A stretch of 64,000 nucleotides of DNA from Desulfobacterales bacterium (GTDB lineage: Bacteria > Desulfobacterota > Desulfobacteria > Desulfobacterales > Desulfosalsimonadaceae), in NCBI GenBank assembly GCA_034520365.1, contig JAXHNP010000006.1:55001-119000 (forward strand), read 5' to 3'. Made by a program: the position numbers and the translations under genes. Shown here piece after piece: positions 5,141 through 62,402 of the stretch (position 1 is its first letter; each line of letters begins with the position of its first letter). The notes beneath the pieces were generated by a model. The model made no database searches. It was not told the origin of the DNA and saw only the letters and a program-made list of their open reading frames with translations.

Positions 5141-5261
5141 AATCGTACTCAGGCCTGCGCGAGCAGGCCGGTACGCGTACTCGTGCTCGTACTCGAAAAT
5201 TTTTGTTTCCGATTACGATTACGAGTACGAGTACGATTACGATTACGAGTACGAGTACGAT
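5141..5261. repeat. Hexamer-array hairpin element, copy 1 (GTACTC/GAGTAC)
   Basis: A left arm of TCGTACTC units and a right arm of GATTACGAGTACG units are inverted relative to each other and could form a long imperfect hairpin. Inside the left arm sits a perfect small hairpin, GGCCTGC-GCGA-GCAGGCC (about 5152-5169), with a GNRA-type loop. The same plan occurs at 30091-30190 and 62048-62144 with different stem bases. The rest of the 5109-5329 gap holds only the efp ribosome-binding site. Confidence 0.8.
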
Positions 5262-12861: not shown

Positions 12862-12965
12862 AGCCGACTCTACGACGCATGTCGCCGTAGGGCAGGCCAC
12901 CGTGCCTGCCTAAAAAAAGACAGAACAAATTTGCCCTGGCCAAAAAAATCACGGCTAATTTGTTC
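12862..12965. repeat. REP-like GGCAGGCCACCGTGCCTGCC unit
   Basis: GCAGGCCACCGTGCCTGC (hairpin) is followed by AAAGACAGAACAAATT. It is a variant of the GGCGGGCCACCGTGCCCGCC family found at about ten intergenic places in this window; the same text recurs at 57100-57152. Confidence 0.7.
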
Positions 12966-13000
12966 TAACCGCAAAATCCATACCCCCGGTCCTGTTAACG

Positions 13001-13465
13001 CTAAGGTTGGGATTCGTTTTCCTCGCTATCGGGATCGAAATCGGGATCGAAATCGGGATCGAAATCGCTATCGGGATCGAAATCGATGCTGTAGACTTCC
13101 TGATCCTCTCGAACTTGGTATCCTCTTCCGCCGAGACGGCTGAGCATCGCGGCCATACGGTCGAGTTCATCCTTGCGGTTCCGGCTTTCCATCTTGTCCA
13201 GCGCCTTGCCGACAACCAGCACATCTTGAATCGCCGCGCACTCAAGCGCGGAGCCACGAGCGATTTCGAAATAACGCCTTCGGTCGGCTTCCGCGGTCTT
13301 GCCATTACCTTCGGCGATATTGAGCGGTATCGACTGGCTGGCCCGAAGCCATTGATCCCGGGCGGGCCGATGGACTCCGTTCAGGCTGTCGGCCTTCTCG
13401 TAAACCCATGCAACGTAGCCTATTGAAAGGCGATAGACGTCCAGTTTTTCGTGTCCAAGGGTCAT
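13001..13465 (-). CDS. Four-helix-bundle protein (23S rRNA IVP / S23 family) with DFDP-repeat tail
   Basis: A 154-residue protein of the family first seen in 23S rRNA intervening sequences. The N-terminal MTLGHEKLDVYRLSIGYV, then QWLRASQSIPLNIAEGNGK and RYFEIARGSALECAAIQDVL, are diagnostic. The last ~25 residues are an acidic repeat, (DFDP/DS)n, encoded by the 12-base unit GATTTCGATCCC at 13021-13085. Related hexamers lie in the 5' leader in the opposite sense, so the ORF is bracketed by complementary arrays. An upstream ATG at 13579 would start inside a duplicated fragment and is rejected. Molecular function is unknown. Confidence 0.85.
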   Translation of the reverse strand: MTLGHEKLDVYRLSIGYVAWVYEKADSLNGVHRPARDQWLRASQSIPLNIAEGNGKTAEADRRRYFEIARGSALECAAIQDVLVVGKALDKMESRNRKDELDRMAAMLSRLGGRGYQVREDQEVYSIDFDPDSDFDPDFDPDFDPDSEENESQP

Positions 13466-13680
13466 ATTTTTTTCGATCCCGATCCCGATAGCGATTTCGA
13501 TTTGGATCTGGCCCGAAGCCATTGATCCCGGGCGGGCCGATGGACTCCGTTCAGGCTGTCGGCCTTCTCGTAAACCCATGCAACGTAGCCTATTGAAAGG
13601 CGATAGACGTCCAGCTTTTCGTGTCCAAGAGTCATATTTTTTCGATTTCGATCCCGATCCCGATAGCGATTTCGATTTGG
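13466..13680 (-). pseudogene. Partial tandem duplicate of the four-helix-bundle gene 5' end plus hexamer leader
   Basis: Bases 13511-13640 repeat 13341-13470 almost exactly (offset 170 bases). They re-create the start codon (13635) and the first ~42 codons, then run into the GGATCG/AAATCG leader and stop after about 58 codons, out of frame with the intact gene. Both copies share the upstream hexamer leader, which differs by one hexamer. It appears to be a recent duplication mediated by the arrays. The remaining bases up to 13829 hold only a short promoter region. Confidence 0.8.
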
Positions 13681-13829
13681 ATACAGAACAAATTTGCCCT
13701 GGCCAAAAAATAAACCAAGTTGTGTTTGACGGGTTGATATGCTATATTTAAATCTTAATATAACACCATGCCAGTTTATTGGTATTGTGTAAAAAAATAC
13801 AGGTTGTTGCTAAAGGACCCGAACCATTA

Positions 13830-21449: not shown

Positions 21450-21550
21450 TCGCTCCCACGCAAAGCGTGGGAGCGAATGGGGAAAATTTTTACTCGTTTA
21501 CTCGTTCCCACGCTTTGCGTGGGAATGAATCCCGGACGCTTTGCGTCCCC
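21450..21550. repeat. REP palindromes upstream of the RAYT gene
   Basis: Two imperfect palindromes sit 25 bases apart: 21450-21476 (CTCCCACGCAAAGCGTGGGAG core) and 21502-21528 (TTCCCACGCTTTGCGTGGGAA core, opposite orientation of the AAA/TTT centre), followed by a half unit GGACGCTTTGCGTCC (21535-21549). Paired, opposed REPs flanking a RAYT gene are the typical arrangement of these elements. Confidence 0.88.
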
Positions 21551-21582
21551 CCTCAGCATCAAACATCCTGGGAAAAAGAAAA

Positions 21583-22113
21583 ATGGGCAGAAGCCGTTAC
21601 AAAATTATTGAAATGAACAGGCCCCATTTTGTCACCTGTACAACGATCCAATGGCTGCCGTTGTTCAGCAGCCCCACGGTTGTCCGCTTCTTGTTGGATT
21701 CCCTTTCATTTTTACAGGACCAGAGCCGGATAATCATCTATGCCTATGTTATTATGGAAAATCATATCCACCTGATCCTGTCTTCCGGCAGATTGAACAA
21801 AGAAATTGCTATATTCAAATCCTACACCGCCAGACAGATCATTGATTTTCTGGAGGAAAGACACGCAAGCCACATTCTTAAAACGCTGCAATACCATAAG
21901 CTTGCGCATAAAAAGGACCGCCAGTACCAAGTATGGCAGGAAGGCAGTCATCCGCAGGCCATTATAAACGAAGAAATGATGCTTCAAAAAATTGAATACA
22001 TACATTATAACCCGGTTAAACGCGGGTATGTGGACGCCCCGGAACATTGGAGATATTCGAGCGCGCGCAATTATGCGGGTGGGGAGGGGTTGCTGGAGAT
22101 TGCGCGTTTTTAG
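21583..22113 (+). CDS. REP-associated tyrosine transposase (RAYT, IS200-like HUH)
   Basis: A 176-residue Y1 HUH nuclease. It has the HUH motif ENHIHLIL (near 60), the RAYT signature HFVTCTTIQWLPLF near the N terminus, and the catalytic region EYIHYNPVKRGYV carrying the nucleophilic Tyr. These enzymes cut and rejoin single-stranded REP palindromes. REPs with the CACGCAAAGCGTG core occur on both sides (21450-21550 and 22135-22180). ATG 21583 gives MGRSRYKIIEMNRPHF, the usual RAYT start. The gene looks intact. Confidence 0.93.
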   Translation: MGRSRYKIIEMNRPHFVTCTTIQWLPLFSSPTVVRFLLDSLSFLQDQSRIIIYAYVIMENHIHLILSSGRLNKEIAIFKSYTARQIIDFLEERHASHILKTLQYHKLAHKKDRQYQVWQEGSHPQAIINEEMMLQKIEYIHYNPVKRGYVDAPEHWRYSSARNYAGGEGLLEIARF

Positions 22114-30078: not shown

Positions 30079-30298
30079 TCTTCTAAGTAACTTAATCGTA
30101 CTCAGTCCCGCGCAAACGGGACGGTTCTCGTACTCGTAATCGTACTCGAAAAAATCAAAAGCCGATTACGAGTACGAGCACGAGTACGAGGCATTAGGTT
30201 AATTAGATCAATAATTTAGGGTCGGCACGGTGGCCGCCCCTACGATGGATCGGGTTTTTCCCCATTCGTAGGGCGGGCCACCGTGCCCGCCTGAACAA
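30079..30298. repeat. Hexamer-array hairpin element, copy 2, with REP pair
   Basis: TTCTAAGTAACTTAATCGTA opens the element (30079). The small hairpin GTCCCGCGCAAACGGGAC, the arms CTCGTACTCGTAATCG and GATTACGAGTACGAGCACG (30091-30190), and then the GGTCGGCACGGTGGCC / GGCGGGCCACCGTGCCCGCC pair (30219-30293) follow. The block lies between the tolC-like gene and cusB within one operon. Confidence 0.8.
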
Positions 30299-57777: not shown

Positions 57778-57975
57778 AAAGGTTCAAGGTTTAGGGTTCA
57801 AGGTTTAGGGTTCAAGGTTTCAGGTTTCAGGTTCAGACTTCCGCCCTTGTCATGCCGAGGTTCGCAAGCCCTTGCCCCTGTCATTCCGAGGAGCGCAAGC
57901 CTTTTCCCCTGTCATTCCGAGGAGCGCAAGCGACGAGGAATCTTAAGATTTCTCGCTAACGCTCGATATGACAGA
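57778..57975. repeat. Phrase array and TCATTCCGAGGAGCGCAAGC hairpins between nqrD and nqrE
   Basis: GGTTCAA/GGTTTAG phrases (57780-57836) are followed by three TCATTCCGAGGAGCGCAAGC-type left arms and one right arm (AAGATTTCTCGCTAACGCTC then GATATGACA). The block lies inside the nqr operon. Confidence 0.75.
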
Positions 57976-60572: not shown

Positions 60573-60648
60573 TTTTCCACCTTAAACCCTGAACCTTAAA
60601 CCCTGAACCTAATCCCCAATACCTAACACCTAATCCCCAACACCTAAA
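60573..60648. repeat. 7-base phrase array between nqrA and nqrB
   Basis: AAACCCTGAACCTTAAACCC, TGAACCTAATCCCCAATACC and TAACACC/TAATCCC phrases, period close to 7-8 bases. It ends at the nqrA stop codon. Confidence 0.7.
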
Positions 60649-62035: not shown

Positions 62036-62402
62036 TCTAAGTAACTTCATCGTACTCAGTTCCGCGCAAGCGGGACGGTTCTCGTACTCGTAATCGTACT
62101 CGAAAAAATTAAAAGCCGATGACGCGCACGAGTACGCGTACGAGAATCAGTAGAAGGGCGGGCCACCGTGCCCGCCTGAAAAATAGACAGAACACAATGT
62201 CGTTAACTTTAGCATTCCGCACCTGTCATTTCGAGGAACGACAGTGACGAGAAATCTTAAAAAATCGTACAATTATAAGATTTCTCGCTGCCGCTCGAAA
62301 TGACAACCGAGCCAATTTTCAGTCTTAAGTTAATGGCATTGAGATAGAACAAATTTATCGTACCTCAGTACCTCAGCACCTCAGTACCTTTAAAGTTATT
62401 GG
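62036..62402. repeat. Hexamer-array hairpin element, copy 3, with REP, TCATTTCGAGG hairpin and phrase array
   Basis: TCTAAGTAACTT (62036), small hairpin GTTCCGC-GCAA-GCGGGAC, arms CTCGTACTCGTAATCGTAC and GCGCACGAGTACGCGTACGA (62048-62144), GGCGGGCCACCGTGCCCGCC (62159), a TCATTTCGAGGAACGACAGT / CTGCCGCTCGAAATGACA hairpin (62225-62306), and ACCTCAGTACCTCAGCACCT phrases ending at CTTTAAAGTTATT. It occupies the upstream region of nqrA; no gene was seen. Confidence 0.8.

Follow-up and report, generated by a model that had tools for sequence, protein, structure and literature searches.

Hairpin-bearing hexamer arrays in a Desulfobacterales genome are probably miniature, ORF-less relatives of free-standing S23 mobile elements

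To our knowledge, neither a function nor a way of moving has been assigned to S23 and the intervening sequences of rRNA since they were discovered, a puzzle of about 30 years. The closest described system is the intervening sequence (IVS) of 23S rRNA that carries an S23 ORF, for example in Coxiella and Leptospira, for which mobility was proposed and left unexplained (PMC4990558). PF05635 proteins have been noted in rRNA insertions (PMC4990558, PMC11270868) and in cas loci (PMC3936711, PMC10910872), and Avd of the diversity-generating retroelements has been described as their structural homologue (PMC10053308). The TAACTGA repeats of Beggiatoaceae were described with no link to S23 (PMC4679880). 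The elements analyzed here come from a stretch of 64,000 nucleotides of a Desulfobacterales genome (the window). As a family they resemble the rRNA IVS in the S23 gene (PF05635) placed between complementary terminal arms that form a long stem, and in their sporadic spread. However, they lie outside rRNA genes, their arms consist of tandemly repeated short units into which hairpins are inserted, and they reach tens of copies per genome with abundant ORF-less forms. The family has the plan of the rRNA intervening sequence, with an S23 ORF between complementary arms (PMC4990558), but moved out of rRNA. Like MITEs, the hairpin elements are short, non-coding and of high copy number, and a subset of copies may have inverted ends, but they are without consistent target duplications, and their arms make up a branched junction and are part of S23 elements. 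REPs, too, are hairpins. The elements have in common with the REP/REPIN and RAYT system (PMC3733652) that they are dispersed extragenic hairpins and possibly relics of mobility, but here the unit is a two-armed repeat array with no Y1 transposase adjoining it. The window elements are not rRNA IVSs by location, not REP/RAYT elements, not an Rfam RNA and not proven MITEs. Their anatomy, the pairing kept in their stems, S23 genes found between such arms, a series of deletions, a link to one S23 clade, the copy number and the marks of transposition at S23-bearing copies make it the best explanation that they are probably miniature relatives, lacking the ORF, of S23 mobile elements that are IVS-like and free-standing.

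An earlier note on this DNA had described three elements with their parts in a common order, and inspection of the window sequence bore this out: the elements lie at 5141-5261, 30091-30190 and 62048-62144, and two of the three are joined to a TAAGTAACTT end, as had also been stated (Table 1). Two of them precede genes, one efp and the other an efflux gene, and one lies close to rnfC. By chance 0.02 occurrences of the hexamer array motif would be expected in the window; 17 were counted, all of them inside these three elements. Complementary terminal arms are present in them as in their S23-bearing relatives, and an S23 open reading frame is absent from all three. The protein of the window S23 gene at 13001-13465 is related to the solved structure XCC0516.

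Table 1. Positions of the hairpin elements and of the S23 transposon copy in the window
Feature	Position	Strand	Basis
Element 1, outer left arm TCGTACTC	5143..5150	+	sequence; pairs with right arm in predicted fold
Element 1, inner hairpin GGCCTGC-GCGA-GCAGGCC, in register within hexamer array	5152..5169	+	sequence, fold, covariation
Element 1, inner left arm GGTACGCGTACTCGTGCTCGTACTCG	5170..5195	+	sequence, motif count
Element 1, A/T-rich spacer, where full-length relatives have the S23 ORF	5196..5209	+	comparison with L193, L272-L274
Element 1, right arm (CGATTA/CGAGTA)n, inverted relative to left arm	5210..5261	+	sequence
S23 transposon copy carrying an S23 gene, TCG-hexamer arms and a partial internal duplication; TIRs 12950-12966 and ~13682-13701	12950..13701	-	
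S23 / 23S_rRNA_IVP gene	13001..13465	-	PF05635, 67.8 bits; TIGR02436
Element 2, end TAAGTAACTT, common to many genome copies	30084..30093	+	
Element 2: arm, hairpin GTCCCG/CGGGAC (30105-30122), arm, spacer, right arm from 30163	30094..30190	+	sequence, fold
Element 3, end TAAGTAACTT	62038..62047	+	sequence
Element 3: hairpin GTTCCGC-GCAA-GCGGGAC (62059-62076); degraded right arm from 62117	62048..62144	+	sequence, fold

Elements 1, 2 and 3 folded much better than dinucleotide shuffles, with z values of -8.1, -8.7 and -2.9 as RNA, and of -7.7, -8.1 and -1.7 as DNA; the fold of element 3, the right arm of which is damaged, was weaker than the other two. The reverse strand of element 1 folds equally well, so the fold cannot tell which strand or which nucleic acid matters. 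In 61 distinct inserts the inner stem had a mean of 3.57 bp inside the fixed outer G-C, against 0.67 after shuffling (maximum 1.13 in 1000). Covariation was then measured on further copies, in an alignment of 42 sequences hand-picked from the inserts of a wide pattern (see below) and from the copies in the window genome, with evident chance hits excluded. In this alignment 91.6% of the stem cells pair, and two-sided changes were seen in 48 cells against 16 in shuffles, six of the seven pairs being affected. The covariation score, a statistic that ignores kinship (the aligned sequences span phyla), was 0.431 against 0.131 +/- 0.019 for shuffled sequences, and shifted registers gave at most 0.080. 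The earlier note had suggested selection for folded RNA; these results support selection for a folded nucleic acid, whether the form selected is RNA or single-stranded DNA. Within the window itself, the stems differ and still pair as it had reported, but true two-sided changes are seen only in the 5141 copy (GGCCTGC/GCAGGCC); the change in GTTCCGC/GCGGGAC is a one-sided T-G wobble, and the innermost pair of the 30091 copy is C-A. Loops of GCGA or GCAA, likewise, are correct for the window but not for the genome, where GTGA, GTAA, GAGA, GTTA, GCCA and ATGA also occur; the loops are RYAA in sister species and T-rich or of two bases in relatives. GNRA was therefore rejected as a conserved feature, and since loops vary by lineage the argument from a GNRA loop to folded RNA fails. 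Some inserts appear to have G-A mismatches in tandem, or else GNA loops that are very short, so that the loop is in general not a GNRA tetraloop. Part of the pattern in the 3' arm could be protein-level, since this arm codes in full-length elements.

Strong folding together with covariation is what speaks for a structured regulatory or non-coding intergenic RNA that is kept for a host function. The family in the host genome bears on this reading. With the 107-bp unit as query against the host genome (4.33 Mb, 8 contigs), and with copies taken from similarity searches and retrieved stretches, about 40 copies of at least ~50 bp were found, the best of them 92-96% identical and with different flanks. 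The oriented copies have in common TCGTACTCAG, the hairpin and CGGTTCTCGTACTCGTAATCGTACTCG, followed by an A-rich spacer and by a right arm that is inverted and differs in length; in several the hairpin is missing, or one side has been lost to another repeat. A subset of copies has CTTCTAAGTAACTT against AAGTTACTTTCTGC as putative inverted ends, and the remaining copies end differently. By simple ORF calls, 33 of the 34 copies examined were intergenic, the remaining one being a mis-located core, and no strand preference relative to genes was seen (16 same and 18 opposite with respect to the upstream gene, 14 same and 19 opposite with respect to the downstream gene). The hairpin element was present in 6 of the 60 genomes searched, host included; the other carriers were the two congeners with the better assemblies, two further genera of the family and, with a weak match, a genome from a different family of the order. 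Both loops and inner stems vary between these genomes. At the efp locus one congener retains the right arm only, while the other has unrelated repeats there; the flanks of another host copy (L010) had no match in either congener. An Rfam covariance-model search gave no family, and only chance miRNA matches near the element. Furthermore, an arm of identical type flanks a gene in relatives. The element was thus rejected as a conserved regulator of efp, since the efp copy is decayed or replaced in congeners, and its reduction to the right arm in a sister species, with the lack of strand bias and of an Rfam family, makes a conserved regulatory RNA, one form of the structured RNA that the earlier note had proposed, improbable. 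The other half of its proposal, a mobile hairpin element, fits best, with ~40 dispersed copies, random strand and S23-bearing relatives. We also observed that a module AAGTTACTTTTAGGCTCGGTCCCGGGC...GGCCCGGGGGG..ACTTC, itself a hairpin, often adjoins the 5' end of the elements to give composite repeats (seven loci). At four loci of genome G005 the same hairpin core lies between other inverted ends (GGTTATCCGGAAAACTCCAGT...ACTGGAGTTTTCCCGATATCC), which suggests that ends may be exchanged between element families.

The core of the element is a (TCGTAC)n array broken in register by AG-hairpin-CG, i.e. TCGTAC TC(AG-stem-CG)GTAC TCGTAC. A wide pattern, with the flanks fixed and 10-30 free bases inside, matched more than 120 contigs, mainly of Planctomycetota (Pirellula, Rhodopirellula), Phycisphaerae, Lentisphaerales and Desulfobacterota; a few matches in unrelated groups look like chance. 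An inverted arm followed within 700 nt in 73 of 113 array hits, against 2 of 107 control stretches, and in 7/113 hits against 0/107 controls the array was followed, at a distance of 18-41 nt and in the same orientation, by similarity to S23; full-length S23 elements are a minority among the hits. S23 was present in all 21 other genomes chosen by the array, a co-occurrence that is weak by itself because S23 is common anyway (70 of 118 genomes of the phylum). The hairpin array of contig L193 immediately precedes an S23 gene, and the end of the gene enters the inverted arm, which has a mini-hairpin of its own. Five other loci are internally deleted versions of the L193 plan, and this series shows the way in which ORF-less copies originate. 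Hairpin-bearing arms were seen on both sides of S23/IVS genes (PF05635) in Planctomycetota, and S23 loci in six genomes had hairpin-hexamer arms on one or both sides. No S23 gene with a hairpin arm was found among the 45 S23 copies of the window genome, the arms of which are TCGAAA, TCGGGA or TCGCTA without hairpin, nor among the other Desulfobacterota S23 loci. At L286, a Desulfobacterales locus, a TCGTAC array lies on the 5' side of an S23 gene, and there is neither a hairpin nor a 3' arm. The weakest point of the account is that no Desulfobacterota element combining both parts was found; the descent of the window elements from an S23 element is inferred from the Planctomycetota loci and L286.

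The coding tail of S23 offers another source for the arrays: they might be repeats grown by slippage from this tail and spread by recombination, the fold being functionless. The 3' arm is indeed translated (DFDPDSDFDP, EHEHRCAEHEHE; the former is the C-terminal tail of the window S23 gene and is encoded by its 3' hexamer arm), and the number of units differs between copies. However, the 5' arm is a mirror image of the 3' arm although it is not translated with S23, pairing within the hairpin insert persists despite sequence change, and the junction is retained in ORF-less copies. That slippage accounts for the elements seems quite improbable.

Genes of other S23 clades, too, lie between inverted arms of short repeats, usually heptamers. 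Inverted exact arms of at least 12 nt were found at 17 of 27 S23 genes in other genomes and, among the own copies, which are nearly identical to one another, at 21 of 22; of 1000 placements at other positions in these loci, 0.6% had such arms. In a fresh Desulfobacterota set of 29 S23 genes, chosen without regard to arms, such arms were present at 13 genes against 0/220 controls, and mostly repeat at period 7 (heptamers). S23 lineages differ in their repeat unit. The S23 proteins with TCG-hexamer arms, 19 in number and drawn from both Planctomycetota and Desulfobacterota, all form one clade (support 100/99), and the trait needs 1 change on the S23 tree against 11.4 with shuffled labels, L286 being scored as hexamer-armed on its 5' array only. 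The window also contains orphan 7-8-nt arrays (CTCAGTGC, AAGGTTC, ACCTTAAACCCTGA, GTACCTCA) at 674-740, 57779-57835, 60579-60647 and 62360-62389, which resemble the arms of other S23 clades.

The S23 copies of the host genome have the marks of transposition. Many of the 45 S23 matches in this genome score equally, and no S23 match was found in 14 well-known control genomes. Among 26 own copies analyzed, both ends (CACGGCTAATTTGTTCT or CAGGGCTAATTTGTTCT and its inverse) were recognizable in 20, and direct repeats of 8-14 bp, mostly of exactly 10 bp, flanked 18 of these 20, against 1.6% of mismatched pairs. The target duplications and the matching ends indicate that these copies transpose. The ends occur 243 times genome-wide within two mismatches. 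In 20 places inspected, among the matches listed, no transposase was found between such ends; a palindromic element of ~150 bp was found instead, and the transposase for the own-genome S23 copies is probably supplied elsewhere. This palindromic element (CACGGTAAATTTGTTCTGT...GGCAGGCACGGTGGCCTGCC...) has no S23 and carries the terminal repeats of the S23 transposon; it is also represented at ~12900-12932 of the window. The window S23 copy has a 170-bp internal tandem duplication of its 5' arm and S23 gene start (13338-13682). These observations bear on whether the hairpin elements are ordinary MITEs, the ends of which are moved in trans by a DDE transposase while S23 and the arms are mere cargo. 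The ~10-bp duplications and matching ends of the own S23 copies agree with it, as does the presence of S23-type ends on the palindromic family without S23. On the other hand, no transposase was seen between these ends in the places inspected, and at the hairpin elements a search for consistent target duplications and for a flanking transposase found neither. The link between arm and S23 also holds across phyla and vehicles. In Rhodopirellula solitaria, S23 and its hairpin-hexamer arms lie in repeated units bounded by GTTCTGGC, then GCCAGAAC-palindrome-GTTCTGGC, and integron integrases are present in four genomes of this kind; these units are likely integron attC cassettes, and the S23-arm module would thus travel on more than one vehicle. 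In one R. solitaria case the integron integrase was ~1.6 kb from an S23 copy (C12:180843-181790 and 183404). Taking both sides, we consider ordinary MITEs a somewhat unlikely explanation.

Movement by a RAYT (Y1) transposase, as for REP/REPIN elements, was considered as well, six Y1_Tnp matches being present in the genome, one of them within the window. All six Y1 loci were without the array motif, the RAYT in the window has another kind of REP at its flanks, and the elements have two arms around a spacer, not a single tagged hairpin. A RAYT/REP origin was rejected on the first of these grounds and must be regarded as extremely improbable. The window gene in question, RAYT-like Y1 at 21541-22113 (+), matches Pfam below the curated cut-off and has its own, unrelated REP hairpins CTCGTTCCCACGC-AAA-GCGTGGGAACGAG.

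Returning to the relationship with S23 elements, the following account may be proposed. A full-length element consists of a gene for the S23 four-helix bundle between two inverted arms made up of tandem copies of a short unit, which in the hexamer-armed clade is TCGNNN; each arm can carry a small in-register hairpin (AG-stem-CG). When the gene is absent the arms meet, and the RNA or single-stranded DNA is predicted to fold into a three-way junction of the outer arm helix, the inner hairpin and the long arm helix with its A-rich loop. The cognate S23 protein may recognize the folded arm, or the fold may be a processing structure that resembles the stem of the rRNA IVS, or both may apply, and ORF-less copies would spread in trans. 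The window elements would then be what remains, or spreads, once a hexamer-clade S23 element has lost its gene. We propose recognition of the arms by S23, and a fold that acts as RNA, because of the covariation and the clade-specific arm type; we infer also that the elements are selfish, not regulatory.

In the open-access literature, which was the scope of the search, we found no account of short-repeat arms, ORF-less derivatives, or integron or multicopy S23. As a wider and tentative possibility, S23/PF05635 might be the specificity protein of a widespread class of mobile elements, in which each clade recognizes its own folded arms (RNA or ssDNA) and aids the spread, in trans, of its element and of the ORF-less derivatives; the rRNA IVSs would be one branch of it, and many environmental short-tandem-repeat arrays would be orphan arms. 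It may be conjectured that reports of S23 genes in cas loci (PMC3936711) are due in part to repeat arms of these genes that were taken for repeat arrays. A concrete pair of protein and site, S23 and its arm, can now be tested, and a class of hairpin and short-repeat arrays that had lacked an explanation is given a likely origin.
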